This document shows positions 1 to 54,980 of a stretch of 64,000 nt of DNA, piece by piece. The DNA comes from Patiria pectinifera (Eukaryota; Echinodermata; Asteroidea; Valvatida; Asterinidae): the NCBI GenBank assembly GCA_029964075.1, contig CM057147.1, positions 11,243,513 through 11,307,512 on the forward strand, written 5' to 3'. How positions within the stretch are numbered: the stretch's first letter is position 1; each line of letters opens with the position of its first letter. The translations under genes were made by a program, and so were the position numbers. A model generated the notes under the pieces. That model worked only from the letters and a program-made list of their open reading frames with translations, did no database searches and had not been told where the DNA came from.

Positions 1-1065
1 ATATTCAAATGAATGGGTTCTTGGTAGACCTGACTCCTGCAATGTTGAGAAATCTGGGAGATGGGCTGGTGGTGGGTCAAGATGCTGACTTCCAGGTGAG
101 TCAACATGACCATGTAAATCCAGGAGTGAATCACATTGACATTCAAATGAATGGGTTCTTGGAAGACCTGACTTCCCCAATGCTGAGAACACTAGGAGAT
201 GGGCTGGTGGTGGGTCAAGATGCTGACATCTTGGTAAGTCAACATGAACTTGTAGATCCAGGTGTGAATCACATTGATACTTGAATGAATGGGTTCTTGG
301 AAGACCTGGCTCCTTCAATGCTGAGAGCACTAGGAGATGGACTTTTGCTGGGTTAAGATGCTGACTTCCAGGTGAGTCAACTTGATCTTGTAGATCCAGG
401 TGTGATTCACATTGATACTCGAATGAATGGGTTCTTGGTAGACCTGGCTCCTTCAATGCTGAGAGCACTAGGAGATGGACTTTTGCTGGGTTAAGATGCT
501 GACTTCCAGGTGAGTCAACTTGATCTTGTAGATCCAGGTGTGATTCACATTGATACTCAAATGAATGGGTTCTTGGAAAACCTGACTCCTCCAATGCTGA
601 GAACACTACGAGATGGACTTTTGCTGGGTTAAGATGCTGACTTCCAGGTGAGTCAACTTGATCTTGTAGATCCAGGTGTGAATCACATTGATACTCAAAT
701 GAATGGGTTCTTGGAAAACCCGACTTCCCCAAAATGAGAACACTAGGAGATGGGTTGGTGGTGGGTCAAGATGCTGACTTCTAGGTAAGTCAACATGACC
801 TTGTAGATCCAGGTGTGAATCACATTGATACTCAAATGAATGGGTTCTTGGTAGACCTGACTCCTCTAATGCTGAGAACCCTAGCAGATTGGCCGGTGGT
901 GGGTCAAGATGCTGACTTTCAGGTGAGTCAACATGACCTTGTAGGTCCGGGTGTAAATCACATTGATACTCAAATGAATGGGTTCTTGGTAGACCTGACT
1001 CCTCCAATGCTGCGAATTCTGGGAAACGGGATGGAGGTGGTGAAAGATGCTGACTATCATCATTT
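1..1065 (+). repeat. Array 1: 138-bp tandem repeat carrying an exon end and 5' splice site
   Basis: About eight copies with a 138-bp period (46 codons). Each reads MNGFLVDLTPPML...GQDADFQ, the module-end motif of this gene (compare SNGFTVDITPPE in exon 7), followed by a donor. Donor-like sites start at 96, 234, 372, 510, 648, 785 and 923 (GTGAGT or GTAAGT). The last copy is degenerate and has lost its donor. The exon end is phase 0 and matches the phase-0 start of the exon at 2298, so one copy is probably the true end of the preceding exon. Copies 3-5 carry an in-frame TAA, so reading through the whole array is not possible. The array may extend left of the window. Confidence 0.85.
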
Positions 1066-1074
1066 AGATTAGGT

Positions 1075-1590
1075 TTAAAATTAAATTATGTGGTGAATGA
1101 GATCTTAATGGAGCTGACACCCAAACCCTTGACGATTGGCTGATGATTGGTCAAGATACTGACTTGCAGATTAGTTGCATTATCATAATTGCAAGTTAAG
1201 ACTTCTTTCCTGTACCAATTGGCTCTACCTTTTGTTAGTGAGCGCATACAGGGATTATGGTCAATTACTGAAGTAGAAACCTTTGTATAATGCACATTCT
1301 GTTAATCAGCATTTGTTAAATGTTCATCAGCGTTTTGCTAAGCTCAGTGATGCTGAACTGAATAACATGGTGGACTAAATAAGTTCTCCACAATGCAGTA
1401 GAAAGTCTTAGGAATTGCTGCATTGTAAAAGAAGTGAAGTTTTTCTGAGGTTGAGCAATATTCTTCTGGTGGGTTGAACAAGTTTCTCTGTAGATTTTAT
1501 GCCGAGGCGGGTACTGCAACAGGAAAATTTGGCAACTGGATACGTACGAGGTATAGTAAAACAAATATAACATGGTTTGTTTTGGGTGGA
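1075..1590. other. Intron sequence, nothing recognised
   Basis: Unique-looking AT-rich intron between array 1 and the LINE tail. The short open frames show no family motif. Confidence 0.5.
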
Positions 1591-2152
1591 TAACTCTCTA
1601 ACAACGTTCAGGAAAGTCTTGAAGACGCATCTTTTTAAACAATAATTTTACTTTTAGTATGATGTGATCGCCCGCCCATGCTTTTTTACTTGTTTTTGAA
1701 GTCTTATGACACATCTTTATCTTTTCATCTTTTACTCTATGGTTTTTATGGGTCTTCTCAATGTTTAACTTATCTAGCTGTTTTAAGACGCATTTTTTAA
1801 ACAATAATTTCTTTTTCAGTATTATGTAATCGTCCGCTCAAGCCCTCTTACTTGTTTTTGAAGTTTTATGTCACTTCTTTATATTTTAATTTTTTTTATA
1901 TAGTTTTGATGGTTTCCTCCATTTTGTTATTGATCCAGCTGTTTTTACTGTTTTAAGTCTAACTTGTAAGTCTAACTTATAACGTTTTTGTACTTTTCAT
2001 GGCAATTTCATGTGTTTCTTAGGTAGGAATGTAAGATTCCTTTGTAAATTACTTCTCCCTTTTATAGATTTTTAAAATTTGTGAAGCGCTTTGAGAAATT
2101 TTGTGTAAAGCGCTATATAAGTGTCATCATTATTATTATTATTATTATAACT
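1590..2152 (+). mobile_element. LINE 3' end (5'-truncated), with duplicated 3' UTR
   Basis: It begins with the last codons of a non-LTR polymerase ORF: SLTTFRKVLKTHLFKQ then a stop near 1640, the common F+LKTHLF ending of CR1/L2-like ORF2. The following UTR is internally duplicated: about 165 bp starting AAGACGCAT(C)TTTTT at about 1622 recurs at about 1785. It ends with a GCGCTATATAAG signature and (ATT)n near 2115-2150. The same tail type is found on SINEs in this window. Confidence 0.6.
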
Positions 2153-2297
2153 GATATTAGCTCCCATCGGCATTGAAAGATGACCAACTAGTTCCCTTTG
2201 CCTAGCTTGTCTACTTCCAATCCTCGGGGAGCGAATGTTGACTGTCCATCCTCAAACCATGTTATATTTGTGTCATTTTCTTCCTTCATCTCCCTAG

Positions 2298-2418
2298 TCG
2301 CATTCTGATTATCTTGCTGTACATTGGGACTACTTTGATGATGAGTCTGGCATCGAGTCCTTTGAGTTGGCAATCTATGAGATGAAAGAAGGAAACAAAC
2401 ACAAGATCTTTCCATTGG
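2298..2418 (+). CDS. Exon 1: module 1, first half
   Basis: The acceptor is TCCCTAG and the donor GTAAGT; the exon is phase 0 in, phase 1 out. It encodes VHWDYFDDESGIESFELAIY, the tryptophan and DESGI core that opens each module. An in-frame TAG lies just before the acceptor, which fixes the 5' edge. Confidence 0.85.
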
Positions 2419-2507
2419 GTAAGTCCTGCTTTCTGAGATCCAGTGAAAACATTGCAGTATTAAATATTAGCTACTATTCCTTTTGGTTTTTACAGCATGA
2501 TGAGTGA

Positions 2508-2808
2508 TTGTAACCATGGATCCTCTACACAAGGATAAACGACTCCCCCAAATTCTGGTTACATGCGTGATACGGCACTCGGGCGTCGTGCGTGTGCATA
2601 TGTAAGATGCGCATGCACGCACGACTGCACAGTCGAATTTGTAGGGCGCCAGCTAGCTGTAGGGCGTGTGCGCGCACATTGTTCTACATGTTCTATTCGT
2701 TGTTCTATGCGCGGACTTGGCATATCACGCATGTAATCCGTTCCGTACATTTTGTACACAAGCTCAGATTAGTCGTTTATCCTTGTGTAGAGGATCCGTG
2801 GTGTAACA
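2508..2808. mobile_element. MITE with about 30-bp terminal inverted repeats
   Basis: The left arm GGATCCTCTACACAAGGATA (near 2519) is repeated inverted at 2772-2797. The GC-rich core is full of CpG and TGCGCA words. It lies inside intron 1 and codes for nothing recognisable. Confidence 0.75.
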
Positions 2809-2847
2809 CAGTATGGCATTTTCCATATTTTTTCTTATGTTTTTCAG

Positions 2848-3026
2848 ACAAAAATCCAAACAGCTTTGAACTGATTACTGACATCACGGCTCAATCCCAT
2901 GTACAAGATGGGCTGACACTGCAACCAGGGGCTCTGTACGTGACGCGAGTCAAGGCCAGGAACCAGGCCAAACTAGTTGCCTCTCATGAAACCAGTGGTA
3001 TCAAGGTGGATCCTAGCCCTCCTTTG
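2848..3026 (+). CDS. Exon 2: module 1, second half
   Basis: The acceptor is TTTTTCAG and the donor GTGAGT; phase 1 in, 0 out. It encodes LQPGALYVTRVKARNQAK and closes with TSGIKVDPSPPL, the variant of the module-end SNGF.VD.TPP. The mid-module intron splits the codon after the first half, as in the other modules. Confidence 0.87.
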
Positions 3027-3038
3027 GTGAGTAGAGTT

Positions 3039-3385
3039 AAGATAATAATGGGTATTTATAAAGTGCACGTTTCCACCATTATTGGTGCTCAAGTCGCTAC
3101 ATCATTAATACCCTGCTCATTGGGCTAATGAAACACTCCAAAGACCATCTCAGCTTTCTTAGGAGTATACAGCTCAATGCTGCCATTTCGGCGCAAAGCA
3201 GCTAAAATCAACCTCATCAACCATCTCTGCCTTCACATTTACTCCCTGGTGGGGAGAAGCAATGAGTGACAAAGTGCCTTGCCCGAGGGCACAGGCACCA
3301 TAGCCGCAGGCTGGACTCGAACCCACAACCTGCAGAATTACCGGCAGACTACAAATTCAATGCTCCAGGCCACGAGGTCACGACA
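3039..3385 (-). mobile_element. tRNA-derived SINE (family 1), minus strand
   Basis: On the minus strand a tRNA-like head (B-box complement GGACTCGAACCCACAACC near 3313) is followed by a body with CTTGCCCGAGGGCACAGGC and an AT-rich tail with GCACTTTATAAATA and ATTATT near 3040-3070. A second, interrupted copy lies at 46027-46590. Confidence 0.7.
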
Positions 3386-3642
3386 CTCCATGTTAAGATA
3401 GTGGGAGTATTTAGAGGTGTTGTGTTCAGAGAAAAGTGTTGTTTAACAAATGAGAGAATATATTCATACTCTCATTATTTACAACAAAACTGGATTGGCC
3501 ATTATCTTAAGGGGTAGGCCTACCTATTTTCAAGTTTGAACACACCATATTTTTTAATGTTTGATAGAAGTAAAAGAAACTTGCATCGTTGAAGGTTGCC
3601 AATATTGATTGTCACAGGACATTCTGAGGACACTGGACATAT

Positions 3643-4063
3643 GTGACCTGTTCTGTCAAAATCAGACTTTTCTGGGCATATGGTCAAAAATGAGTTTTTT
3701 GCATATTGTTAAAATATGTTCTTTTTCCTTTTAATAGGTGGTTTAATTTTTTAATCCGGTCATTCCTGTGCAAAGTTATGCTATTTTAAAGTTCATTGTG
3801 TTGAAAAGTAGAAAATGGCCACGAACGTCACAAAACAGTAATTTCTTTAACTGACGTATCTTAACAAATCGTCAAAAATACTACATTTAGAGTTCAACTT
3901 AGGGTTTCAAACTTTTATAGTACGTGTATATTTTAGACATGTTCAGGATTACAAATATGCACAAATTTGAAAATCGAAAAAAAATCACCCCCACAGTGTT
4001 TTTTAAGCCCTAACTCAATTTCAATCTCTGCCCAGAAGCGTCTGCTTTTGACAGAGCAGGTTG
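3643..4063. mobile_element. MITE, about 36-bp imperfect TIRs
   Basis: The left arm GACCTGTTCTGTCAAAATCA at about 3645 and the right arm TGACAGAGCAGGTTGAC at about 4047 are inverted repeats, both flanked inward by TTCTGGGCA. The interior is AT-rich with no reading frame of note. Confidence 0.6.
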
Positions 4064-4369
4064 ACTTTTGCCGTTCACATGTTGGAATATTGGTGTAAAA
4101 ACTAATGCACATTGCTATTGGGAGATCTGTCAGAGCTAGCTGACTTGTGCAGATTATGACTTTAATTAGTTTTTGGTCGCCTACGTGACGAGCCTACAGC
4201 TCACATTGAATAGTTGTCATGAGAGGGAAACCTTGTTATTAATCTGGACACAAGAGACAACCATTCGGAAGTGATGATTATCATTTTCATTGTACTTGAC
4301 GAGAGTCTTACATACTAATGTGTCTTTGTAGTATGTAAAATATTTTGATCCATTTGATTTTGATTAAAG

Positions 4370-5842: not shown

Positions 5843-7387
5843 GTTGGTTGTTAAAATTATAATTTTGGAAAATGTGATATCTGCTTTCAATGTCAAGGCT
5901 GAAAATTGGAAGTACAAACCTGCTTTCTGCAGTTGTGGTATTTGCAGTCTAAGCGAGCAAATATTATTGTTTGAAGCACCAAGAGGCAATCAGACACACA
6001 AAGGCACACAGACTGTTATGTTTTACTATAGGTTCCGTGCGCCAGCAAAAGAGGGTGCCCTTTTACCACTTTTGAGAGCCCCTTGGATGGGTCACACAGA
6101 GTGTGCGTACTGTACTGTTGTGGTTCGCGCCAAGTATGCACGACTTCCTGAATGTGCCAAAGCTGTTAGCCACAGCGACTTTTCGCTTGGGCATCAGGTG
6201 TCGTCGTCACATGAATACATTTGAATTCATCTTGGGATGGTTTCCCAGACTAATTCCGCCCCCAATAACTTTGGATCATTTGAAATACGCAGTGGATGGA
6301 CCGAGAACCAGTCTAGGTCTCCTCCAACTCTCCTTTTCTGGCCGTTGAAGGGGTACTTGTGCATGGAGCCCATACTCCCGAGGACAATGCTTTATGCTTC
6401 CGTTTGTCCCTGTAATATAACACTATCCCAAAGACTAAGCACACAAACTTACTACAGAGGACCGTTTCCAACAAAAGACCGAACTCCTGAGAACTGATAG
6501 GATCTGTTGTTCTTTGTGTGTTGGTCTTCGGGGTTATGTAAAACACATACACCCAGTCGTATTCACACCGTCGATCAGAGACATCCTATTGTCCCTCTTT
6601 TGTTTGTACCTTAAATTTTTAGGAAGTCTCCCATATGTTTTGTACACGACCCCAATCGCGGGCGTATGCTGGGAATTGCGGACGATATTGTTCTCTTTTG
6701 TTCTCTGGCAGTTTTCGTCCACGATTTGAATGCCTGAACATGCCCACCTAGTCTGGTTTTACTATGCTTCCATAGACATAATTGTTCCCTTCTTTTGTTT
6801 TTACTGTTTGGACTTCTAAAAGTACTTTTTAAAAATGTCCTGACACATTGGTACTCTTAACCATACATGTACATCAAATCTACTCAAAATCTAACACAGC
6901 GTACCTGATGTACATGACTTTGAAATTGATTACACTCCTATGAACAGGTACAAGCCAGCTAGACTGGTTCCCTGACCTTACAATTCAAGGACGTCCATAC
7001 ATTGCTCTGTTTCATCTTAAGTGGGGCCAGGGAACCAGACTACAGGAACTTGATTGCTTTTGTTTTGTTTTTTCAGGATCTACGAACACAAAACTTCAAA
7101 CAAGTCAGGGTAATAATATTTGCTATAAAATGCTGACCCCCCAATCCATCCATTTCTGAAACTTACAGCAAAAGCAAAATTGTGTATATTCCCTGTAAGT
7201 GCTAGCTTAAGGACCAAGACGTTGCAATTTGGCCTGACATTCCAGTTATGTGCCTGACATTACAGTTTGGTTTTCTTGTACGGGTAGGTTAACATTTTTG
7301 TAGATTTAGTAAAGTTCACAGCTTTGCAGTAGTTTGTTTGAGTACATTATACAACTCCATCTACCCGTTTTTTTTTTTTTTTGGTAG
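5843..7387. other. Intron 4, old repeats only
   Basis: About 6235-6370 is an inverted relative of 18595-18790 (shared words include CCCCCAATAACTTTGGAT and its complement). The stretch GTGCGCCAGCAAAAGAGGG near 6038 resembles the left end of the repeat at 52952. The rest shows nothing I recognise; a T-run near 7368 forms the polypyrimidine tract of exon 5. Confidence 0.5.
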
Positions 7388-20606: not shown

Positions 20607-20710
20607 GAATGAACGAAGGCGGACAGTGTAACTCCTCCACTAGTTACTTCTCTGTGGATATCACACCACCTATTGAGGGTAGGCTGCGTGTTGGACCTTT
20701 CTATGACATG
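20607..20710 (+). CDS. Exon 15: module 9, closing half
   Basis: The acceptor is TCTTTCTAG and the donor GTAAGT; phase 1 in, 0 out. It encodes NEGGQCNSSTSYFSVDITPP and EGRLRVGPFYDM, a clear module end. Confidence 0.87.
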
Positions 20711-20772
20711 GTAAGTCATCAGGAGATCAGTGTATTGTGTTTCTATATTTAAATGTGGCATCCTGCCATTAA

Positions 20773-21239
20773 GGTTGCAGACCAGTAAATCGGTCCGAAA
20801 TTGCCTACGCCGGCCAAATCAGGATTTGCATGCCCTTAAAATCTTCAGTATTTGAGCATACTGTGGGCCATGAACTTGAGGGTTTGTAAAAAAAATATGG
20901 GTGGAGGCCGTGTACAGGACTGTGAGCTTGCAGTTCCGTTCAATTTGGATGAAATTGGGGCCCTTAAAGCGCTGTATTTTGCAATGGAGTGTAGGCATCG
21001 TTTTTCAAAATGGCGATAGGCTTCAGGACTGTTTTCAGGGGTGATCATCTTCGGATGGAAATTTCTCAAAAAAGTCATCAGTTGACCCCCCGAAAATTAA
21101 AAAGAAAATGAAAGATGATAAGCTTTAATTTGATTTGTGTCTAGAACACCTTGTAGAGTTGTGAGTACTTTTCCCGAATTTCTGAAGTGGGAGCATTTAT
21201 CATTGGGGTCTATGGAAGTTTATTTGCTGGTCTGCAACC
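20773..21239. mobile_element. TTAA-flanked MITE, 467 bp
   Basis: TTAA lies at 20769-20772 and 21240-21243. The terminal inverted repeats are GGTTGCAGACCAG and CTGGTCTGCAACC. The interior is non-coding. Piggybac-like or Kolobok-like transposases target TTAA; which one applies cannot be told. Confidence 0.85.
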
Positions 21240-21539
21240 TTAAGGTTTGGTTGCATGCTGGACCATTCTCTTTCATGTTAGCTACACTCATGAGGGCAAT
21301 GAAAAGGCTTTTTTTTCCTCTCTTCTTTTTGGGAGGGGGGGGGGCTGGTTGGTCTTTCTCAAATCTTCCAGAAGCTATATGCCCAGTTTCAATTTAAATT
21401 TGACATAAAGTGATTTTTAAACAAGTAAAGTGTTTTTTTATGCCCAGTGTGCATGAAATTCAACTTTTAAGGTGTTCCAATCATTTATCACCACTGCTGA
21501 ACTCAAGAGTTTAGTAACCAGTGACACACTTTTTAAAGC

Positions 21540-25394: not shown

Positions 25395-26020
25395 CTCGAC
25401 AAACCAGCCCTATGTTGTTCAGCTATTGGTAGTTAAAGAGGTTGTGGAATGCTCCAAGACATTTCCGTCATTTTTTGGGTATATGTAGCCTAAGGTGTGA
25501 TGAAATAAAAACGATTATTGTTTCTGTCATGAAATTAGTACAAAGGTTACTTTTGAGAGCTATTTTTCACGTCCTGTTTCGACCCGAACGTGCAATTTGT
25601 GTAAAAGTTGTCGTTGCGGGCAGCAAACAAAACACAGTAAATCGTGACGTAATAAACAGGACTCGTTTATGCTACTCTGCATCGGGAGTCCTGTTTATTA
25701 CGTCATGATTGACTGTGTTTTGTTTGCTGCCCGCAACGACGACTTTTACACAAATTGCACGTTCGGGTCGAAACAAGCATGACAGGACTTGAAAAACAGC
25801 TCTCAAAAGTACCTTTTGTACTCATTTTATGACAGAAACAATAGTCGTTTTTATTTCATCACACCTTAGGCTACATATACCCGAAAAATGGCGGAAATGT
25901 CTTCGAGCATTCCACAACCTCTTTAACCATGCAGGAGCCTGTACTATCCCAAGTAGGACCCATCTTTGTACTCGTCTGAGCTGACAGCAAGTTTAAACGT
26001 GACTTATGGTTAAGCGTGCA
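25395..26020 (+). pseudogene. Duplicated, broken copy of exon 17, split by a MITE
   Basis: 25395-25436 (GACAAACCAGCCCTATG...) matches the start of exon 17. 25923-25978 continues it exactly at TTAACCATGCAGGAG, with AAGTAGGACCCATCTTTGTA. The copy then jumps to sequence like the intron after exon 17 (AGCAAGTTTAAACGTGA, also at 26432). Small deletions shift its frame and it lacks the end of the exon and a donor, so it should not be spliced in. Confidence 0.85.
25437..25922. mobile_element. TTAA-flanked palindromic MITE, 486 bp, inside the exon copy
   Basis: TTAA at 25433-25436 and 25923-25926 flank a nearly complete palindrome with ends AGAGGTTGTGGAATGCTC and GAGCATTCCACAACCTCT. Arms of about 230 bp pair through GGCAGCAAACAAAACACAGT to a short loop near 25680. 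Exon 17 supplies the unfilled target (GTTAACC). Confidence 0.92.
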
Positions 26021-26204
26021 TTATCCGTGAGCAGTTGATTTGAATTGGAACTTGAGGACTCGTGATTGACTTGCAGGGACATGTGAAGGACTGGACTGCA
26101 TCCCTGACATTGAAACAATTGTCAAGGGCTTGATTTGGGTTGCACTTGCAAAATTCACCATTAAATCATTACCACTGATCATATACCATTTCCTTTCTGC
26201 ACAG

Positions 26205-26379
26205 ACAAACCAGCCCTATTTTGTTCAGCTGTCGGTCGTTAACCATGCAGGAGACAGTGTCCTATCCCAAGTAGGACCCATCTTTGTTGACTCGTCTGAG
26301 CCAAAAGCAGGATTGGTAGTTGATGGAATGGACTTCAAGATGGACATGACAGACAGCGGAGACAGAAGCCAAGTTACTG
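26205..26379 (+). CDS. Exon 17: module 10, second half
   Basis: The acceptor is TCTGCACAG and the donor GTAAAT; phase 0 in, 1 out. It encodes TNQPYFVQLSVVNHAGDSVL, GPIFVDSSEPKAGLVVDG and an acidic tail. VDSSEPKAGLVVDG is the diverged TPP..G.V.DG module end. It is followed by a 7.4-kb intron that holds the DIRS element. Confidence 0.88.
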
Positions 26380-27419
26380 GTAAATGGAAATTGCTACATA
26401 ATTTTAGTTAATGTTCTTGCATGAATAGTGCAGCAAGTTTAAACGTGAACTATGGTTAAGCATAGTTTGACTAACTTCATTTAACACGGGTTTGACCACT
26501 CAACTTTGGAATGTACTCCACAGCATGCATGGTTGCATTGCTTGTTGCCATGCATATCATTATGTACAGCAGGGAGCCAGGACCAAGAAGTATTGAGATG
26601 ACTTTTTGAGGCACACACAATTCAACTTCTGATCTGATGTGCACAGACAAAAGCAAAAAGAATCAGACACGGTCTCGACCATCGTGACTTGGTCAACCAG
26701 TTCGTGCCAGGTTTATTTTGACAGTGACCAGACCCAGGTGTGTGATTATTTTTCACGAGATCGATGCCAGATGGGTTCAGGCCAAAATCTGCGGGTAGCA
26801 CACCCTGATATTTTCGGCCTCGCTCGCTGCGAGCGGGTTGTCACCGACAGATATTTCTGGCCTCGCTCGATGCATGTGTCCACTTCGTGTCCTACTTACC
26901 TGTTGGACCTATAAATGCATATTTCCTTAACTATGTAAATTAACCGCTAAAGTAAAGATTTGCTATAGCGTGCCACAGCGCCCTCCTGCGCCAGCGCCCA
27001 CAATAGTCAGAGCCCCCGCCATTATCGTCCTCTTTTCTTTAGCGCTCGTGTCGGTAGGACGTGTTTTTCAATGCTCACAGTAGCATGCACGTTTTTACTG
27101 GATTTAATCGCTATTTGTTATTAATTTTCTCAAGATTTGCAGTACATTTGTTTCTCGGAAGCACTAGGTGTGTTTCTGGTTACATTTGTTTGTTTTTTAG
27201 ACGAGTTTTATAAACGTTTTTATTTCGTTTTATGACCTCGTGTTTTTGCGTGTATACATTGTACATTAAAGGATACGTATGTGTTTGTATTTTTATTGTA
27301 CATTAAAGGATACGTATGTGTTTGAATTTTTTTATCCTTACAGTTTGAAGAAAATCCTACTATAGTTCTGAGACTGTTCTGGTTTTTGGGGTCTTGATAA
27401 AAGGCCTCCCAAAAATTTC

Positions 27420-29750
27420 GTGACTTGTGATAAATGTCACAAGATTTTGCCGAATAGCCTAGACGACTCCCACGAATTATGTCCTAAGTGTAGGCCATGT
27501 TCTAGAGCTCTTAGGTGTTCCATTTGCGAGCCATGGGGCTCCGAAATGTGGACGAAGATTGACACCTGGCTAGCGAAATCTACAGACTCGGCAAGAAGTG
27601 AAGCTTCGACCACTTCTGGAAAGAAAAAGAAGTCATCGAAGCGGGTAAGTACGGAGCCACCGCGGTCCGTTCCTGGTATTGGTTTTACCGATCCTACCGG
27701 ACGCGCGACGGGGCTTTCGCGGACTGGAGCCGGGCCGATGGCCGAGGGTTCCAGTGCCGCAAGTCTTTCCCGGGGACAGGTTTCGGGCACGGAAGTGTCG
27801 CAGGCCAGTCCCCAGAAGGGAAGGAAGAGGACCGGTGGTGGGCGCGATGCGCCGAAAACCACCGGCCCTGACTCGGTTCAAACCGGGGCCAGACGGAAGT
27901 CTGCGAGCTCCCGGGCCGATGAGTCGGCAAACCGAGAAAAACATCGGTCTACGTCGGCAATCCCGCGACCGACACCGGGATTTCCCCGGGGCAGATTGCT
28001 CGAAGGGATTCCCGGATTTTACTCAGCCACCGGTTGAGGGCGCAAAAACGAAAAACAAAACCGATCGGCCCATCGCGTTTACGTTCGGCCCGACCGTTGG
28101 TCTGGGGAACCGAGCGGAACCGGCCCTATCGGTCTGACGGCCGGCGTGCCGGTGGCACCCGGGTTCTTTCGGACGTTCCTTCGGGAATTTCTGATTTAAT
28201 GGCTCGTCACCGTGGATCGAACATCGATCACGCCCAAGAATAAACGGCGCCGGGCCCATAAATCCCGCCGCCGTTATTCTAGCTCTTCAACGAGCGACAG
28301 TGCCAGTACGTCGCCGACTTCTGGCCAGTCATCGGACCCCCCACGTCATCGCAAACGCGGGCGGAGAGACAATACATCGGATTTATTGCTGAAAGGTTTT
28401 CAGGCTTTGTCGGCTCAGTTGGCGGCGTTGGCGCCACAACAACTCCCAATTTTCCCTCAAGCTGAGGCCGAAGATCGGGAATTTGACCGGGAATCAGGCG
28501 GCGCTATTTCTATTCACCCGTCTGATTCATTGCAAGAGTCGGACTCCGACGTCAACCGCGCTACGCGCAGAGACGCCAAGAGACCTTCACCTACTCATTC
28601 TACAGCTGTAGATACACACGAGGCAACACCTAAGGGTAACCTCGAGTCCCGGCCGGGTCCATCTTCGATGGATCGGCCGTCCGACGTGGATTCTACCGGG
28701 AGTCATCCTTATGAGACTACCGATAATAGATTTCGTGAAGTGATGTGGGATATGGTTCGTGTATTAAAGGTTCCCATTCCCGAACAGTCAGAATCTTCAC
28801 AAGGTACACGGCCTAGTTTTAAAAAACGCACAGGTGTACCAGAGCGGGATTCCCCGAAGTCAACCTTTCCGGAATTCCCGGTGGACAGGGTTTTTTCTAA
28901 CCGTCTTAAAACAATAGCTGGTCAGAAAAAATGGCAACCCTTTGCCAAGGCAGCATGTCATCCCTTTCGGGTTCCAAAGCAGGATACCGAAGAATTTTTG
29001 ACAGTTCCGGTTATCCCAGACAATGCAAAGGACAAGATGGCGGCAGATACAGGGAAACAATCACTTAAAGTTCCCTTTGCCGATCCTGTCCGGAGTAAGC
29101 TTGAAGAGGCATTACATAAGGTTGATGCAGCATCCCGCATGGGTCTGCAAACGACTTCATTTATGCTTCTTTTGTCAGAATACCTGGTTACTGCATGTGA
29201 TTCCGGTTCCAGTGTTTCTCCTACAATGGCTGTCAATGCCTTTCAATGTCTGGAGGATGGATTACGCATCATCCTAGACCAATTTGCTAGGGTCTCGGTG
29301 CTTGCCACGGTCTCCAGACGTTCCAATGTTCTAGAAACGATCTTCTTCCCTTCAGAAGGGGCAAGAAAACGCATGGAGGCCCTTCCTTTATGGAGCAAGG
29401 ATTTGTTTGCGGATCAGTTCCAGTTCCAGACGATGATGGAGGCCGAGGCCAAACGTCTAGAAGCAACAGACCGTATTAATTTACAGGCCCCTCGGAAGAA
29501 GTCACAACCAACAGCTAAGGTCCCGACTCCTTCGAATAGGTCCAAAGGGTTTAGAAAACCTTTGCCCTCCTTTCGGACACCCAAGTCTACCCAATCAACC
29601 ACTGTGGCTCGATCAACACCAGCAGCAGCCGCAACAACATCACAGACAACTTCCGGACGAAGTTTTGGCTGGCCAACCTCAAGAGGTCGTGGCACGCGGT
29701 TTCCCTCCCGCCAGAATTCTTCTCGAGCGGGTCGGGGGTGGCGTCGGTGA
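27420..29750 (+). CDS. DIRS gag-like region
   Basis: The region before the polymerase encodes a CDKC...CPKC...CSIC cysteine cluster near 27420-27540. A Ser/Arg-rich basic segment follows (RRRAHKSRRRYSSSSTSDSA at about 28245), then a globular-looking stretch to about 29750. The position and composition match the ORF1 of DIRS-like elements. Its exact role is not established in the family. Confidence 0.65.
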
Positions 29751-29899
29751 CGCTGGTTCTCCATCCGTGGCCCCCCAGATTGGGCCCGTGGGGGGCCGCT
29801 TAAGGCAATTCGGGGAGACTTGGGCCCACTTTTGCACCGATGGGTGGGTGCTTCAGACAGTCACACAGGGGTACAGCCTCGAGTTTACGAGCACTCCTC

Positions 29900-31300
29900 C
29901 ATCGGTAATGTTCTCACGTCCCACCCCTGTTCCATCAGACAGAGAACAGCGGAAGGTATTGGAGAAAGAAATAGAAACCCTGCTATCAAAGCAAGCAATT
30001 CAACCGGTACAAAGCCCAGTAGAAACATCAGGTTTCATGTCGACATTCTTCCTTACACCCAAGAAGAAGCAAGGCGAGTGGCGTCCTATTCTGAACCTAA
30101 AACCGTTGAACAGGTTTATTCGTCCACGGCGGTTCCGAATGGAGACCCTGCGCACCGTCTTAAATTCTCTCCCAACACCATCCTGGGCCGCATCAATAGA
30201 TCTGCAGGATGCTTATCTTCACGTACCCATTTGCGAGGAACACAGAAAATACCTGCGTTTTCAATACAAAAATACAATTTTCGAGTTCCTCACTCTTCCG
30301 TTCGGTCTGTCAACATCACCAAGGGTCTTCACCAGAGTAACAAAGACCCTGGCAACAATACTCAAGAGCGAATATAATGATATTCCTCTATCTGGACGAT
30401 TGGTTAATCGTAGGCAGGTCCAAAGAGGAAGTTCAACAGTCCTTAGAGGTAACCGTCGACTTGACGACAAGGTTAGGGTTTCTGATAAACTTGGAAAAGT
30501 CTCATATGGTCCCCACCCAGACACCGTCTTTTCTAGGGGCAGAAATCGACCTGGTAACAGGGATCGCTTACCCTTCGAGCGAACGCATACACAATGTCCA
30601 GGAGTGCGCCACACTGTTCCTGACGGCTCGATCAGCACCAGCGGTGGCCTGGCTACGACTGCTGGGCCTAATGGCCAGTCTGGTCGATCTAGTCCCATGG
30701 TGTCGCCTGAGGATGCGGCCAATTCAAATGCATCTTTTGGCTCATTTTCGGCCCAGTCAACATCCTTTGTCAAGGAGCATACCAATACTGAAGCCAATCA
30801 TCCCCCACATTCATTGGTGGACAATTTGGAGCAGCCTGAGTCAAGGTTTGCCTTTTCCTCCTCCACTTCCCACGGTGACTCTTACGACAGATGCGTCCAA
30901 CATGGGATGGGGTGCGCATCTGCAGTCACAGCAAGTGTCAGGTCTTTGGACATCAGACGAACTGATTTTCCACATCAATGTTCTGGAACTCCTTGCAGTT
31001 CGCAGAGCCTTATCCCAGCTCATCAGCCTAGTCAAACAGAAGGTTGTAATGGTGCAATCCGACAACTCAACTGCAGTGGCCTACATAAATCGCCAAGGAG
31101 GAACACGTTCCCCCCAGTTGTGCTTCCAGACTTGGAAGCTACTCCTTTGGTGCATAGATCACAACGTAACTCTTGTGGCATGTCACATACCAGGCGAGTT
31201 GAATGTCACTGCAGACGCGCTGTCCAGAGGAAAGATCCTTCCAACAGAATGGCAACTACACCCAAAAGTTGTCCAAACACTGTTCAATCTACTGGATCGT
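29900..31300 (+). CDS. DIRS reverse transcriptase and RNase H region
   Basis: Reverse transcriptase motifs are visible: WRPILNLKPLNRFI near 30080, SIDLQDAYLHVPI near 30195, LPFGLSTSPRVFT near 30293 and YLDDWLIVG near 30386. RNase H follows with TLTTDASNMGWGAHL (about 30870) and SDNSTAVAYINRQGG (about 31050). The overlap of this region with neighbouring frames is normal for DIRS elements. Confidence 0.88.
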
Positions 31301-31619
31301 CCCAACATAGATCTATTCGCGTCACCACTGAACAACCAATTGCCGGTATACTGCACTCGAGTCGTGGATCCAAAAGCCTTGGCAGTCAATGCCTTAACAA
31401 TCGACTGGACAGGCATGTACGCATATGCATACCCACCGATCTCAATTCTCTCGAGGGTACTGCACAAGATACAGAAGGAGCCCTGCAAGGTAATGCTCAT
31501 AGCTCCATTTTGGCCTCGCCAAACCTGGTTCCAAACGATGATCAGGTTGCTGGTTCATCAGCCCATCATCCTCCCGCAAAGACCAGATATACTGAAACAG
31601 ACCCGGCCCAAGTTGAACC

Positions 31620-32757
31620 ACCCGGATCCGGAGTCACTACGCCTGACTTGTTGGCTATTGTCCAGCATTCCATGCGAACAGCAGGCCTTTCTGAGGAAGC
31701 TGCCGCCTTGGCAGCCTGTGGCCGGAGATCGTCTACAAGGAAGACATATGATAGCCGACTCCGACATTTTTTTAGGTGGTGCGACGGGAGGGACGTGGAT
31801 CCCCTCTCTGCATCTGTAACCATCGTTGGGGACTTCCTCCTCCACCTGTTTAATACAGGGCTAGCATTGGCCACAGTAAAAAATTACAAGTCGGCCATTG
31901 CTGCAGTGCATCAAGGTTTTCAAGATGGCTCCTCTGTATCAAACAACCTGGCACTAGGTCAACTGCTCAAAGGCATGTTTATGAAGCGTCCTCCTCAACG
32001 TAAACTTATCCCAGCATGGGATTTAGGAGAGGTCCTACGTACTCTGGCAAACCCGCCCTATGAACCTCTTGCGACGGTACCCTTGTTGGATCTGTCAGTC
32101 AAGGTAGCTTTCCTCCTCGCTGCTGCAACAGCTAGGAGACGGAGCGAGCTCCATGCATTGACCCTGGACAAGGGACACATAAGATGGGAGCCGCACGGAG
32201 TACGTCTCATCCCTCGAAGTACTTTCCTTACTAAAAACCAGTCTCCTAACTTCCAGCCTCCGGACATCTTTGTTCCTGAGTTGAAATCATTATCTTCGGT
32301 CCCCGAAGATAAGAAATGGTGCCCAGTTAGAGCTCTAAAATGGTACATAGCTCGCACAAAACCCATCCGCGGTGGGGAGTCTCAACTGTTTATAACTTCG
32401 ACTCCTCCCCACCGCCCAGCATCCCGTGACACAATTTCTCGATGGATAGTTACAGCTATCCGATCCCAAATGCCAGACAGTCCTCGGAACGAATCCCGTC
32501 GGACGATTCATGCTCATGATACAAGGGCGGTCACAACATCATGGGCACTATTGCGGGGTGTTCCTGTGGAAGAAATAATGCAGGCAGCATGCTGGAAAAC
32601 AGCAACGACTTTTTCGTCATGTTACCTGAGAGATGTCCTCTTAACAGAGGGGCGGACTGGGCGGGTGACGATGTCAGCCACCATGCCATCAGCTGCCCCA
32701 AGACAACCCTCCAAAGAGGTCTCAACCCAGGCTGTTGTACCAACAACTCAACAGTAG
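31620..32757 (+). CDS. DIRS tyrosine recombinase
   Basis: A phage-integrase-type recombinase: an N-terminal SAM-like part (TRKTYDSRLRHFFRWCDGRD, LATVKNYKSAI) and a catalytic part. The catalytic part has the Arg in AAATARRRSELHALT, the H..R pair in HAHDTRAVTTSWA and a terminal Tyr in SSCYLRDV. It would recombine circular DNA copies into the genome in place of an integrase. Confidence 0.88.
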
Positions 32758-33754
32758 GGTGAGTAAGGCTCATGGTAGTTTGTAATGTGCCTTTGTGTAG
32801 TCCATGAGGGGATTCCTTATTTGTGTGTCCTTCTTTGACTCAATTGCAGCCCACTCCCACCACCAATTTCGGTGCCAGTCTATGCATTTATAGGTCCAAC
32901 AGGTAAGTAGGACACGAAGTGGACAACCCCCAAACAATGGTGTTTGGTTGTCCACGAGGGGACTACTTACCTGTTGGACCGTCCCGCCCGCCTTTCCCCA
33001 CAGTGGGCTCCTCCTTTGGTGTGATTCACTCGCGCTAAAGAAAGAGGACGATAATGGCGGGGGCTCTGACTATTGTGGGCGCTGGCGCAGGAGGGCGCTG
33101 TGGCACGCTATAGCAAATCTTTACTTTAGCGGTTAATTTACATAGTTAAGGAAATATGCATTTATAGGTCCAACAGGTAAGTAGTCCCCTCGTGGACAAC
33201 CAAACACCATTGTTTGGGGGTTTTATCAGTCATCCGTTCCAAATACCACAAAACCATTGCGTGTATACACGTCATACGACGCGAACTGGTAGTTAATGCT
33301 GGTATTCTGTGCCACCTTAGGCAATGGTTCATGCAAATGAACCATCAAATTTGGCTCTGAGCTGATGGTTCAGCTGCGACTACGGCTACATACCTGCATA
33401 GGCCTGTAGTTGGACGTGCTGATTGCCATTGAAATGTGTACCACGTTGGCTTTGAGGATGTTACAAGTTATTTACAGTTTGCGTGCTTCATGTTTAAGCA
33501 CTTTGAAGTAAAACAGGTAGGGCCAGACTTGAACTCGGAGATGGATTCCAACCAAATGGCGTGAGTCTTGGACTCTGACTGAAAGTGACTGGAGACTCAG
33601 ACGCGACTTGACTATTCCTATCATGTATCTTGGTCTTTTCATCAGTGAGGGGAAGTTTGTGTGCCCAGAGTCTATAAGATTCATAAACGGCAGTATCTGA
33701 CGCCCTTATTGAAAGTTTGAAATCAATAAATTCATATTGACTTGACTTTTACAG

Positions 33755-37266: not shown

Positions 37267-37546
37267 TCTATGTGTCCTCAGTGTGACTGCCAGGATTTCT
37301 TGGGGATATTGGATTCATCTGAAGACAACTCAACATTTGCCAGCACCACAAATAGGTCACTTGAAGCCACACCAACCAACGAGGTCATAATCAGTAAGAT
37401 GACTGAAGTAACCAGCGCTTCATTGACCACAATGGGTCCCGTCCCTTGGACTATCCAGAAAATGGACGAAGATGGGGACAGTGTGTCTGATGATGAGAGT
37501 GGGAGATGGATATCACAGAGAGCTTGCGGCATCCAACTCTATCCAA
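37267..37546 (+). CDS. Exon 21: Cys cluster and Ser/Thr-rich linker
   Basis: The acceptor is TTCAACAG and the donor GTAAGA; phase 0 in, 1 out. It encodes MCPQCDCQDFLGILD, then a Ser/Thr/Asn-rich stretch (TTNRSLEATPTNE) that looks glycosylated, and WISQRACGIQLYP. The last 15 bases and the donor are multiplied in array 2. Confidence 0.86.
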
Positions 37547-37820
37547 GTAAGATAATAGATCAATCCATTAAGCTCTGCCCCATGGTGTTCTGACCAATCA
37601 CAGCTGTGATTTATGTCAGACATGTCCAACTCTATCCAAGTAAGATAATAGACCGATCCATTAAGCCCCGCCCCATGGTGTTCTGACCAATCACAGCTGT
37701 GATTTATGTCTGACATGTCCAACTCTATCCAAGTAAGATAATAGACCGATCCATTAAGCCCCACCCCATGGTGTTCTGACCAATCACAGCTGTGATTTAT
37801 GTCTGACATGTCCAACTCTA
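37532..37820 (+). repeat. Array 2: 93-bp tandem repeat of exon 21 end plus donor
   Basis: Copies start at 37532, 37625, 37718 and (partial) 37811. Three identical donors (TATCCAAGTAAGAT) lie at 37547, 37640 and 37733. The intron part of the unit, CATTAAGCCCCGCCCCATGG...GTGATTTATGTC, is the left part of the MITE found whole at 63488-63687. Use of a downstream donor would hit an in-frame TGA near 37591. Confidence 0.92.
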
Positions 37821-38074
37821 ATCCATTAAGCCCTTCCGCATTTGACCTTTTACAAACCTAAACTATCTAGTCATCTACATTTCTTTTTGTGCTCTTGTGA
37901 TCGTCATCGTCAATAATGACTATCTTCTCATTTTTGTTCATATTTTCTGTCTCTTTATTCTTGTGAGCCCTTACCTCAAGTAACAATTTGACCTTTAGGG
38001 ACAATTTCCATAATGACATGGGGATCAATGTACCACACACCAAGTTGAAACAGAGGCTGCCTATTCTTTTCTAG

Positions 38075-44256: not shown

Positions 44257-44440
44257 GAGCATCACTGGGCGATAGGAACGTCCAAAGGCGCAACAGACCT
44301 GCAAGACTTTGTCAACATTGGGTTGAACCAGACAGCTACTAACAGTGGTCTGATGGGATTACTGCATCACAACACTACATACTATGTGACTCTGAAGGCT
44401 ATCAATGGAGCAGGCTTGGCAACCATAGTAGAATGTGATG
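44257..44440 (+). CDS. Exon 28: module 11, second part
   Basis: The acceptor is TGTTTTTAG and the donor GTAGGT; phase 0 in, 1 out. It encodes EHHWAIGTSKGATDLQDFVN then NTTYYVTLKAINGAGLATIV. Its last 97 bases and donor are the seed of array 3. Confidence 0.9.
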
Positions 44441-44915
44441 GTAGGTAGAGAAAGACTGACACAGAGACAAACAGACAGACAGCATGACAGTGATCTGACA
44501 GGATTACTGCATCGCAACACCACATACTATGTGACTCTGAAGGCTATCAACGGAGCAGGCTTGGAAACCATAGTAGAATGTGATGGTAGGTAGAGATAGA
44601 CTGACATACAGACAAACAGACAGACAGCATGACAGTGATCTGACAGGATTACTGCATCACAACACTACATACTATGTGACTCTGAAGGCTATCAATGGAG
44701 CAGGCTTGGAAACCATAGTAGAATGTGATGGTAGGTAGAGATAGACTGACATACAGACAAACAGACAGACAGCATGACAGTGATCTGACAGGATTACTGC
44801 ATCACAACACTACATACTATGTGACTCTGAAGGCTATCAATGGAGCAGGCTTGGAAACCATAGTAGAATGTGATGGTAGGTAGAGATAGACTGACACACA
44901 GACAAACAGACCAAC
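44344..44915 (+). repeat. Array 3: 145-bp tandem repeat of exon 28 end plus donor
   Basis: Four copies with exact 145-bp spacing; donors (TGTGATGGTAGGT) lie at 44441, 44586, 44731 and 44876. Each unit is about 97 bp of exon (TACTATGTGACTCTGAAGGC) plus about 48 bp of intron (ACAAACAGACAGACAGCATG). No acceptor lies in the unit, so copies 2-4 can act only as alternative exon ends. The period is not a multiple of three. Confidence 0.93.
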
Positions 44916-45185
44916 AATCATCTAGGCTGGCAGCTATATATCTAATGAGGTACTCCATCTCAGTAGGTACGTACTCCGAAGGTTATCAATATTTGAAACC
45001 GAAATTCCATCAATAATGAAGGCCTCGATACACATCATTAGAATTTGATGATACTTTATATTTCATGCATATCCAATGCAAATAAAGTTCAGGAAGACAG
45101 CCCGGTATCCTTTTTAGCTTTACTGTTGACACGGTAGTAAGGGAGCTTTTTGTTTTGGTAAAATGTTTTTTTGAATCATCCTTAA

Positions 45186-45842: not shown

Positions 45843-46013
45843 GTGTGACTGTCCTTCTGGAAGAGCCCACTGCAGATGATGTCAACACCACCTCCATGTT
45901 TAGCAAGAAGTTTGAGGAGGATGTTTACCCACCTGATGTGGAGAAAAGCAAAGACCCAACAAAGACTGGTACCTCCTGGTCCAAACCACAGGATGAGTCC
46001 ATTAATCGCTACG
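45843..46013 (+). CDS. Exon 29: acidic linker after module 11
   Basis: The acceptor is TATTTTCTAG and the donor GTAGGA; phase 1 in, 1 out. It encodes GVTVLLEEPTADDVNTTSMF, VYPPDVEKSKDPTKTG and SKPQDESINRY. Confidence 0.85.
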
Positions 46014-49705: not shown

Positions 49706-49921
49706 AATGTAGGTGTTGCTAACTTTTCTTGATGCTTGTTACACTGTACAAGTTTCACAAGTTCTGCTGATTGGGACTTAACTTTAATGAATCAAGTGGT
49801 ACAAATATATGTGTAAAATGATATCTACTTTTATTCACTTCAACCCAAAATTAAAAATGAAAATATTTTTGCAAAAGTTCTTTTTGATTTGAGGATCATC
49901 ATCAAACTACGTGACTTGAGA

Positions 49922-50390
49922 TTGTGACTTGGACTTGACGTATTTGACTCCAGACTCAAGCCGTATCCAAATGACGTGGCTATGGCTTACGATCACACAT
50001 GCGCCTATGCAAGCAGCTGCAGCCTCTACCTATAGACATTGTGACTTAGACTTGAAGCATTTGACTCCAGACTCAAGCCGTAGCCAAATGACTTGGCTAT
50101 GGCTTACGATGACACATGCGCCTATGCGAGCAGCTGCAGCCTCTAGTCTACCTATGGACATTGTGACTTGGACTTGAAGCATTTGACTCCAGACTCAAGC
50201 CGTATCCAAATGACTTGGCTATGGCTTACGATCACACATGCCCCTATGCAAGCAGCTGCAGCCTCTACCTATAGACATTGTGACTTGAAACATTTGACTC
50301 CAGACTCAAGCCGTATCCAAATGACTTGACTATGGCTTACGATCACACATGCGCCTATGCGAGCAGCTGCAGCCTCTCTACCATCTACCT
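49922..50390. repeat. Intronic tandem repeat, about 118 bp x 4
   Basis: Four copies of a unit with GACTCCAGACTCAAGCCGTA, GGCTATGGCTTACGATCACA and GCAGCTGCAGCCTCTA. Unlike arrays 1-4 it holds no exon end. Confidence 0.85.
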
Positions 50391-51164: not shown

Positions 51165-51271
51165 GTAGGTTAATACAACATGGTTTGACTGGTCCCATGG
51201 TGTTTACTGATTTGACTGCCTCCTGGGCCAACTTTTGAGGCTCTGCTTACCATCAGCGAAAAATCCCTGCA

Positions 51272-51900
51272 TATTGTAATAATAATGAACACTTATAAGG
51301 CGCCGGTATCCACCAAGCAAGACACTCATGCCGCACAATACAAAAAACAACCAAGACAATTACAATTTAAAATGAAATTGAATTTGATTAATAAAAATCA
51401 GCAACAAAATAATGAATACCAACTCATTAAACACAAAAATGTGAGGCAAACATTTGGGATTTCAGAGAAGATTTAAATACAGACAATGATGACGACTGAC
51501 GAATTTCAAGGGTTAGATTGTTCCAGAGTTCGGGAGTGGCGCGTGAAAAAGACCAGTCTCCCCAAGAGTGATTGGTGCAGAGAACAGCAAGCTGTGGCGC
51601 TCTGAGTGGTGCGTCTGGATAAGGTGATGAGGCGAGCAGTGGCATTTTGGTGGCGCTGAGGTTTGATGATTTGGTGTTGTGACAGGTTATACATGAGGGA
51701 GTTACAACAATCTAAGCGTGAAGTTATAAATGCATGGATGAGTTGCTCAGTGGCTGTATGATTGAGATATTTCGGAATGCAGCCAACATTTCAGAGATGA
51801 AATCTGACTAGTGATTTTGACTCTGCCATAAAATTGGGCCCTGATGTGAAAGGGAGGGAATATATCAAAATCAGCCAACACTGCGATTAACTAAGTTGTA
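51272..51900 (-). mobile_element. CR1/L2-like LINE 3' part, minus strand
   Basis: Minus-strand ORF2 C-terminus: HLRNVGCIPKYLNHTATEQL, TSRLDCCNSLMYNLSQ, then SWGDWSFSRATPELWNNLTL and SVFKSSLKSQMFASHF. All are hallmark phrases of this family (usually R.LDYCNSLL and F..A.P.LWN.LP). At least one frame change splits it near 51600. The 3' tail at 51278-51310 reads GGCGCCTTATAAGTGTTCAT plus (ATT)n on the minus strand. Confidence 0.85.
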
Positions 51901-52004
51901 CATGTATTTGTTTTATTACACATTGTACATAGTTAGTGCCATTATTGTACTGAAAAAATTTCTGAGGAACTATCTCCCATGGAATGCGTATCACATACAG
52001 CTTG

Positions 52005-52350
52005 GGTGGCACGGGTGGCTTGTGCGTAAAGCGCTTGCCTCTCACCAAGGTGACCACGGTTCGAATCCTGGCCGCGGATCACATGTGAGTAGAGTTGTGC
52101 GTTGGTTCTCTCCTGTGCCACGAGGGTTTTTCTCCGGGCCCTCCGGTTTTCCTCCCTCCGAAAAAATCAAACATTTTCGATCTCAGGCTGTGCTCCGTGG
52201 TCTTATATGGGTCGATGAGGCAGGCAGCCAGAGGCGCCTTTACGTGCCAGCGGCCCAATGACGTTGTAGCCGTGTCGTTCGCAATTCAGCATCCCAGCTG
52301 TGAGTAAGGATGATTAGCCTCCCAAATTATTATTATTATTATTATTATAC
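52005..52350 (+). mobile_element. tRNA-derived SINE (family 4), plus strand
   Basis: The head has GGCTTGTGCGTAAAGCGCTT and a perfect B box GGTTCGAATCC. The body has CCCTCCGGTTTTCCTCCCTC. It ends in (ATT)n at 52327-52348. Confidence 0.85.
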
Positions 52351-52521
52351 AAGGTGTGATGTCAGATGCAACTGTGCAAGGGGTCCATACTGTTAGCTGC
52401 TTCACCTGCTATCACAATGTAGCCTATAACCACCTATGACATCTGAACAAAATGAAGATTGAGGACTGTCAATGGTGGTAGAGGACTATCTGCACTTCCA
52501 CCCTTACTTGTGTTATTGCAG

Positions 52522-52672
52522 GTCTACACCAGGGTGGCTCACTCATCCTAGGTCTGCTGGATGTCAATAAAACCAACCAGGAATTCACCTCGGATGCTGC
52601 CCTGGATTATAAACCATACATCACCAATCCACTCTACACCATCCAGTACACATCAAGACTGCTTAGACACAG
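52522..52672 (+). CDS. Exon 33: second unique region
   Basis: The acceptor is TTATTGCAG and the donor GTTGGT; phase 1 in, 2 out. It encodes LHQGGSLILGLLDVNKTNQE and YITNPLYTIQYTSRLLRHR. Confidence 0.86.
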
Positions 52673-52951
52673 GTTGGTTTGCTGCACACTGTGTGTTTAC
52701 CCTTCAAAAGTGATCAGACAAATTCAATACAACTTAAGAATGAAATTTTCTCTAAAACTAGTCTCATATTTGTTGGTTTTTTTTTTTCTTTAATAATTGT
52801 CTGCATTCTTGTTCTTGTGTGGGTATAGAAAATGTCCTCTTAGTATTGAACTGTTAATTTTTGTAAGCAGACCGTTCATGGAAATAACTGCCAAGACTTT
52901 ATTCAGAATATCAGGTAAATTATACAATTGTTAATATAGCAGTACAATTGT

Positions 52952-53213
52952 CCTATGGGCTCCGTGCGCCAACGAAAGAGGGCGCCCTTTTACCTAGCAA
53001 CGACATATGGCGGGACATTTAGCTGGTGGATGTACACAGTTTCCTGTGTGTGCCGCACGTACACCAGGGGATTTGTACTATGTACACGCAGTGGTATGGC
53101 CGCGCGTCGCTGCAAAATTGCAGTCGGGCAAGATGGCATCGGTCAGTCACCCCCAACTGTACTTTCTTTGCCGATGAGGGGGTAATTGTACGGAGCGGAT
53201 AGAAAGCCAGTAG
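52952..53213 (+). repeat. Family F dispersed repeat, plus copy
   Basis: CpG-rich 260-bp repeat with GCGCCCTTTTACCTAGCAAC; reversed partner at 23640-23880. It lies in intron 33. Confidence 0.65.
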
Positions 53214-53368
53214 TCATTTTGGTTGCATACTTTACCATTGATTTGCTTTTTCCTGTGACGGTTAACATAAACAGAAATTATTACCACCTAAAAGACAATG
53301 GACAATGGACAATAAGGATTGGAAATAGATGTGTCAACACAATTATACATTTTCATTTTGAATTCCAG

Positions 53369-53511
53369 GATACGTTTTGTGTATGAGCCAACCTTCTATA
53401 TCACCAGTCTTGGTCAGACGGAGCTGCAGGGACCATTAATGATTAACATGAGCCTAAGCACACCGGGGAACTGGACATTGGAAAAACCTAGACTTATCTA
53501 CTGGGACACAG
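53369..53511 (+). CDS. Exon 34: second unique region; end multiplied in array 4
   Basis: The acceptor is GAATTCCAG and the first donor is GTGAGT at 53512; phase 2 in, 1 out. It encodes RFVYEPTFYITSLGQTELQG and MSLSTPGNWTLEKPRLIYWD. The last 64 bases are the repeat unit of the array that follows. Confidence 0.86.
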
Positions 53512-54980
53512 GTGAGTCTAAGCACACCGGGGAACTGGACAGAAACAAGACCTAGATTTATATACTGGGACACAGGTGGGTCTAAGCACACCAGGGTACA
53601 GGACAGAGACAAAACCTAGACTTATCTACTGGGACAAAGGTGAGTCTAAGCACACCGGGGAACTGGACAGAGGCAAAACCTAGACTTATCTACCGGGACG
53701 AAGGTGAGTCTAAGCACACTGGGGAACTGGACAGAGACAAAACCTAGACTTATACACTGGGACAAAGGTGAGTCTAAGCACACCAACTGGACAGTCTAAG
53801 CACACAGGGAACTGGACAGAGGTAAAACCTAGACTTATCTACTGGGACAAAGGTGAGTCTTAGCACACCGGGGAACTGGACAGAGACAAGACCTAGACTT
53901 ATCTACTGAGACAAAGGTGAGTCTAAGCACACCGGGGAACTGGACAGAGACAAAACCGAGACTTATACACTGCGACAAAGGTGAGTCTAAGCACACTGGG
54001 GAACTGGAGAGAGACAAGACCTAGACTTATCTACTGGGACAAAGGTGAGTCTAAGCACACCAAGGAACTGGACAGAGACAAGACCTAGACTTATCTACTG
54101 GGACAAATGTGAGTCTTAGCACACCAGGGAACTGGACAGAGACAAAACCGAGACTTATACACTGGGACAAAGGTGAGTCTAAGCACACCGGGGAACTGGA
54201 CAGAGACAAGACCTAGACTTATCTACTGGGACAAAGGTGAGTCTTAGCACACTGGGGAACTGGACAGAGACAAGACCTAGACTTATCTACTGAGACAAAG
54301 GTGAGTCTAAGCACACCGGGGAACTGGACAGAGACAAAACCGAGACTTATACACTGCGACAAAGGTGAGTCTAAGCACACTGGGGAACTGGAGAGAGACA
54401 AGACCTAGACTTATCTACTGGGACAAAGGTGAGTCTAAGCACACTGGGGAACTGGACAGAGACAAAACCTAGACTTATCTACTGGGACAAAGGTGAGTCT
54501 AAGCACACTGGGGAACTGGAGAGAGACAAGACCTAGACTTATCTACTGAGACAAAGGTGAGTCTAAGCACACCGGGGAACTGGACAGAGACAAAACCGAG
54601 ACTTATACACTGGGACAAAGGTGAGTCTAAGCACACTGGGGAACTGGAGAGAGACAAGACCTAGACTTATCTACTGGGACAAAGGTGAGTCTTAGCACAC
54701 TGGGGAACTGGACAGAGACAAGACCTAGACTTATCTACTGGGACAGAGGTGAGTCTTAGCACACCGGGGAACTGGACAGAGACAAGACCTAGACTTATCT
54801 ACTGGGACAGAGGTGAGTCTTAGCACATCGAGGAACTGGAGAGAGACAAGACCTAGACTTATCCACTGGGACAAAGGTGAGTCTTAGCACACTGGGGAAC
54901 TGGACAGAGACAAAACCTAGACTTATCTACTGGGACAGAGGTGAGTCTTAGCACACCGGGGAACTGGACAGAGACAAGAT
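53448..54980 (+). repeat. Array 4: 64-bp tandem repeat of exon 34 end plus donor, about 24 copies
   Basis: The unit is CTAAGCACACCGGGGAACTG...CTTATCTACTGGGACAAAG then GTGAGT. Donor-like sites start at 53512, 53576, 53640, 53704, 53768, 53853 and 53917, then every 64 bp to 54941 (23 sites). All are GTGAGT except GTGGGT at 53576. Only one spacing (53768-53853) is irregular. Units are about 90-95% alike by eye, so the array looks young. No acceptor is seen within the unit. Confidence 0.95.

Follow-up and report, generated by a model that had tools for sequence, protein, structure and literature searches.

Four tandem arrays across modelled 5' splice sites in one gene of Patiria pectinifera, probable minisatellites of the 'mirage' kind known from amphioxus

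Minisatellite-like tandem duplications of exon-intron boundaries, termed 'mirages', have been described in amphioxus globin genes, and passages of the same paper cite the same arrays in Adh3, with somatic instability (PMC3087553). In these passages, splicing is undisturbed, edge copies escape homogenisation, and mirages are proposed as a source of new introns (PMC3087553). Excerpts of a second paper add mirages in PGBD5 and TnC (PMC3902484), and undisturbed splicing is reported for Adh3, the globins and TnC (PMC3087553, PMC3902484). The units given in these texts measure 10-72 bp in Adh3, 150-160 and 157 bp in the globins, and 60 and 108 bp in PGBD5 (PMC3087553, PMC3902484). Tandem repeats in lancelets are mentioned in sections of two further papers (PMC2632668, PMC2206037), one of which refers to intronic partial exons with canonical splice sites, with data not shown there (PMC2632668). 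No genome-wide survey of boundary arrays was among the literature matches listed. Here, we describe four tandem arrays in one gene within a stretch of 64,000 nucleotides of Patiria pectinifera (GenBank assembly GCA_029964075.1, contig CM057147.1, positions 11,243,513 to 11,307,512; hereafter the window). These arrays are probably exon-intron-boundary minisatellites of the mirage kind, in which the extra donors (5' splice sites) would be passengers.

As in the amphioxus mirages of Adh3, BflGb6, BflGb9, TnC and PGBD5, going by the published excerpts, the tandem unit spans an exon-intron boundary and repeats a splice signal, and edge copies stand outside homogenisation. In contrast to those examples as excerpted, the four arrays here occur in one gene, are all on the donor side, and include one with 23 donors; an acceptor-side array (BflGb6) is among the published mirages, whereas none of the present arrays is of that type. 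The structure is already described in lancelets, and the arrays presented here would be dense further examples of it.

Tandem arrays were called with Tandem Repeats Finder (TRF) and set against a gene model, the scope of the analysis being one gene in one sequence, the 64-kb window. As originally predicted, four arrays with units of 138, 93, 145 and 64 bp (arrays 1 to 4) each extended across an exon end and its GT donor. The unit spans the exon-intron boundary in all four, this boundary being modelled and the array-1 exon lying partly in the window, and many copies carry the splice signal, the predicted counts of 7, 3, 4 and 23 donors being borne out. The claim that no array contains an acceptor also held. 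The best acceptor scores in arrays 1 to 4 were 1.9, 1.4, 0.3 and 2.3 bits, compared with a median of 4.0 and a lower quartile of 2.8 bits for 25 hand-picked model acceptors, and the score scan detected no acceptor of near-usual strength in any of the four. One other array with long units and at least 3 copies was found, again in line with the original prediction; it is intronic (49921-50377 by TRF, 49918-50377 as delimited here; 117-122 bp x 3.9) and spans no modelled exon boundary. All features are given on the plus strand.

Array 4 is the most extensive in donors. It occupies 53449-54979, where TRF split the 64-bp period into two rows (5.2 and 18.6 copies); its unit consists of 62 bp of exon tail plus GT. 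The exon up to the first donor (53369-53511) comes from the gene model, with no outside support. The 23 donors span 53512-54941, each at a head-to-tail joint; 22 of them retain AG/GT (the slash marks the exon end) and 18 score 8.2-8.8 bits. The motif MAG/GTRAGT was found 30 times on the plus strand of the window, 26 times within the arrays and 21 times within array 4, and twice on the minus strand. With two irregular or end copies excluded, mean identity among 20 intron copies was 91.6%, and that between them and the exon copy was 85.2%. There was no clear higher-order period (mean identity 0.912-0.926 at lags 1-8), and the mismatch count of the unit at 53853 is inflated by an indel that shifts it. 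With 18 donors scoring about like the first, this array constitutes a natural test of how the spliceosome chooses among near-equal donors.

Array 1 (1-1055 by TRF, 138 bp x 7.7; 1-1059 as delimited here) extends beyond the left edge of the window. Its unit of 46 codons comprises exon tail, donor and intron, provisionally split as 95 + 43 bp as cut, the exon tail being at least 95 bp with its left edge outside the window. Donors lie at 96, 234, 372, 510, 648, 785 and 923, five of the seven scoring 8.2-8.8 bits, and five additional weaker CAG/GTGTGA sites score 4.2 bits. The unit at 785 is shifted by an indel, which inflates its mismatch count, and the final unit has no donor. A decayed copy follows at 1094-1175 (score 62 against 38 for the best of 100 shuffles), with the donor destroyed (CAG/ATTAGT). 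The exon itself starts to the left of the window, and its tail is in frame with the exon at 2298-2418, which it joins in phase 0.

The donors of the two remaining arrays are weaker, each scoring below 4 bits. Array 2 (37532-37825 by TRF, 93 bp x 3.2) starts within a modelled exon at 37267-37546, which ends at the first donor of the array, and the unit holds 15 bp of exon tail, the donor CAA/GTAAGA and 78 bp of intron; its three donors (37547, 37640 and 37733) thus have AA/GT instead of AG/GT. A fourth, partial copy at 37811-37854, found by alignment with no shuffle control, has lost its donor in a 21-bp gap. Sixty-seven of the 78 intron bases of the unit correspond to dispersed repeat sequence at 63490-63556 (91%), and a portion of this sequence is seen again in inverted orientation at 63689-63662 (89%). 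The dispersed repeat covers 63490-63689, apparently with inverted ends. Array 3 (44329-44911 by TRF, 145 bp x 4.0) likewise starts within a modelled exon (44257-44440) that ends at its first donor, with a unit of about 112 bp of exon tail, the donor ATG/GTAGGT and about 33 bp of intron, and with donors at 44441, 44586, 44731 and 44876. A possible decayed copy that has lost its donor lies at 44990-45053; its score of 39 (best of 100 shuffles, 32) is to be taken as tentative, as scores of 36-41 were also found at unrelated sites in the window.

When the frame was read from the acceptor to every donor, it was open only at the first donors of arrays 2 to 4 (37547, 44441 and 53512). All 27 later donors of these arrays (2, 3 and 22, respectively) added 1 to 23 in-frame stops. 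In conservation, the donor 9-mer did not clearly exceed the remaining windows of its unit, ranking 13 of 64 in array 4 (21 of 23 units used) and 105 of 138 in array 1 (5 of 7 units used). A search for decayed copies in nine flanks of the five arrays, the comparison array included, gave two that beat all shuffles, one downstream of array 1 and one downstream of array 3. When a single unit of each array was used as a BLAST query (E up to 0.01), neither these flank copies nor the fourth copy of array 2 appeared among the hits. The pattern of copies suits homogenisation within an array plus decay at its edge.

In the mechanism that we propose, a short tandem duplication would have captured between 15 and about 112 bp from the end of an exon, together with the donor and 2 to about 78 bp of intron, after which slippage or unequal exchange would have expanded the array. 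Upstream of the first donor, the exon copy would remain complete and coding, and each further copy would become 5' intron sequence. We infer that the first donor is the one used in splicing, paired with the upstream acceptor via exon definition, and that the remaining donors are neutral passengers, kept alike by homogenisation within the array, with decay at the distal edge of some arrays. Tolerance of such arrays is plausible because the exon and its first donor are undamaged and the extra copies are intronic.

Several observations weigh against this interpretation. Donors 96 and 234 of array 1 are both open in frame, the unit being 46 codons long, with stops appearing from the third unit onward; array 1 may be read through, or may have its true first donor beyond the window edge. 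Decayed copies were detected in only two of the nine flanks, and none beside array 4. The exon boundaries that host the arrays are modelled. The model was built with an exon-chaining program written for this analysis, with hand-set splice weights, self-trained codon usage and the plus strand only, and with a retroelement region at 26.9-33.6 kb barred from exons. Five of its 44 exons were later copies inside arrays 1, 3 and 4 (785-1036, 44502-44585, 44647-44730, 44792-44875 and 54747-54812), and a chained exon at 28-233 passes over donor 96 of array 1 and ends at donor 234. The array-internal exons were dropped and exon 28-233 was cut by judgement, so that the model taken alone leaves room for splicing at later copies. 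A weak AG (0.3 bits) in the copies of array 3 would yield in-frame cassettes of 84 bp, and these were what the chaining program chose; in-frame 84-bp cassette exons from this array are nevertheless unlikely.

The predicted peptide gives partial support to the model around the arrays. It is a run of FN3-like modules followed by cadherin-like domains (Cadherin_4, E 2.1e-9; Big_9, E 1.4e-7), and one stretch matched fn3 at E 1.5e-4, which is below Pfam's cut-off. This match and the module profile both support the exon at 2298-2418. In a leave-one-out profile built from five other modules, the whole modules containing the array-1 and array-3 exon ends scored E 2.5e-12 and 1.9e-16, respectively, against 0.59 and 0.27 for the best of 2000 shuffles, most of the sequence of the array-1 module lying in later exons. 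The array-3 exon, which had no Pfam family match, would encode the second half of an FN3-like module. For the exons at arrays 2 and 4, there was no Pfam family match and no support from the module profile, and the array-4 region had a single, weak match in PDB (E 0.045).

Among the other explanations, the one that survives best would add to the passenger model: donor regions of this lineage would be mutational hot spots at which tandem duplications arise, for example through microhomology between donor motif and exon or through transcription-linked breaks, making arrays more frequent at donors than in intron interiors. We regard this as possible but tentative. Four of the five arrays with long units and at least 3 copies lay on a donor, against 0.33 expected when units of the observed lengths were placed at random in a model of 38 exons (P 5e-5 with a one-unit footprint, 0.0012 with a two-unit footprint). 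With all eight TRF arrays of period at least 30, including those with fewer than 3 copies at 27258 (37 bp x 2.0), 34369 (58 bp x 2.1) and 47930 (44 bp x 2.6), P was 4e-4 or 0.005. With all 12 local duplication clusters, the period of one of which (446 bp) was estimated, it weakened to 0.026 or 0.21. The original prediction had offered, as one of two alternatives, that donor regions are prone to duplication, and had held that four recurrences in one gene make chance unlikely; the first set of tests agrees with both claims, but the excess is weaker once two-copy duplications are counted, and the test was post hoc, the pattern having been noticed before testing, in one gene with five arrays.

Two further comparisons were made with the exon ends. 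The five array-internal exons were removed before both of these and before the placement statistics; for the placement statistics and the sliding scan, exon 7077-7109 was also removed and exon 28-233 trimmed to 28-95. In the loose sliding scan, local copies were found for five donors and one acceptor, out of 38 of each, compared with 114 of 1157 window segments (25 clusters, arrays included), which is little excess; the first acceptor has no upstream sequence and could not score, and the array-1 donor used was 96. In the exon-end copy test (39 model exons; array-1 donor tested, 234), five of the 38 donors, namely those of the four arrays and 20710, and one of the 37 acceptors had a local copy whose score exceeded the highest of 60 shuffles by more than 4; a further acceptor, at 45843, beat its best shuffle by 2. 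The donor excess is confined to multi-copy arrays and does not extend to local duplications at large.

An excess of donors over intron interiors, if real, requires more duplication at donors, longer survival or easier detection there. Neutral tolerance by itself cannot raise donors above intron interiors, since the interiors should be at least as tolerant; it may explain the lack of arrays in exons and at acceptors here. At the joint of array 4, TGAG occurs at 53449 in the exon and again at 53513 in the donor, and at that of array 3, CAGAC is common to the exon (44326-44333) and the intron (44904-44911). These matches hint at microhomology, but they are short and could be due to chance. That 5' splice sites duplicate well above the rate of intron interiors, with exon ends steadily copied into introns as a constant burden on proximal-donor choice and a supply of new splice sites, seems to us rather unlikely. 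Should donors truly be hot spots, counting such arrays across a whole genome would tell mutation bias apart from selective tolerance.

The extra donors might instead be functional, as spare or alternative exon ends or as a cluster of U1-binding sites, an explanation akin to the original suggestion that they are tolerated because they act as redundant exon ends, with selection deciding which arrays persist. The retention of AG/GT in nearly all array-4 donors, most of them at 8.2 bits or above, would fit such a role. Tolerance itself remains plausible, as argued above, but redundancy is unsupported for arrays 2 to 4, in which every later donor brings stops. The donor 9-mer is also not unusually conserved, and the donor is gone from edge copies in arrays 1 and 2, although array 4 is without such decay. 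We consider functional donors improbable.

Still less probable is that array 4 is a string of AG/GT sites serving as both acceptors and donors, as in human UBC, with stepwise removal of units or the birth of an intron. Its units are exon sequence ending in AG/GT, which is the geometry of intron gain by tandem AGGT duplication (PMC3443670), and also that of dual-specific sites as excerpted from PMC10809524. Unlike in the former, the repeated exonic segment in array 4 is located where an exon ends and a modelled intron starts, and a downstream AGGT acting as an acceptor is only hypothetical (PMC3443670). Regularly spaced AG/GT sites within a tandem repeat are shared with UBC, where the excerpt places them 228 nt apart, in frame and coding (PMC10809524), whereas the 64-bp spacing of array 4 shifts the frame and adds stops. 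The best acceptor scores in array 4 were 2.3, 1.6 and 1.0 bits, poor against the model median given above. Array 4 is also a natural test of how tandem duplication feeds intron evolution.

That the arrays are artefacts of assembly or sequencing is very improbable: tandem arrays are hard to assemble, a single sequence was used and the third and fourth copies of array 3 are identical but for one base. However, sequence varies among the copies within array 1 and within array 4, array 1 has a decayed copy beyond it, and the reading frame of each exon at arrays 2 to 4 continues into the first copy.

Two matches of exon ends were considered and rejected as further arrays. The donor at 20710, outside the four arrays, is weakly matched by a copy at 21240-21301, whose score none of 1000 shuffles reached, but this was not counted as a hidden array, as the sliding control gave scores of 36-41 at several unrelated places. 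A TTAA-flanked intronic element with inverted ends GGTTGCAGACCAG lies between them at 20769-21243, about 60 bp after the donor. The acceptor match at 26205 reflects not an array but a decayed upstream exon copy split by a palindrome; in the region 25398-26461, the decayed copy of part of exon 26205-26379 is intronic and upstream of that exon, and a self-complementary stretch (25432-25927) interrupts it.

The Rfam search at the gathering score and the ARAGORN tRNA scan of the window gave no match. The region barred from exon chaining holds a retroelement around 27372-33217, with reverse transcriptase (RVT_1, E 2.8e-7) and weak RNase H matches; it has a DIRS-like appearance, its recombinase-like tail being putative. 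A 13-bp tandem repeat of 7.5 copies (55642-55739) was found in the intron after exon 55395-55483.

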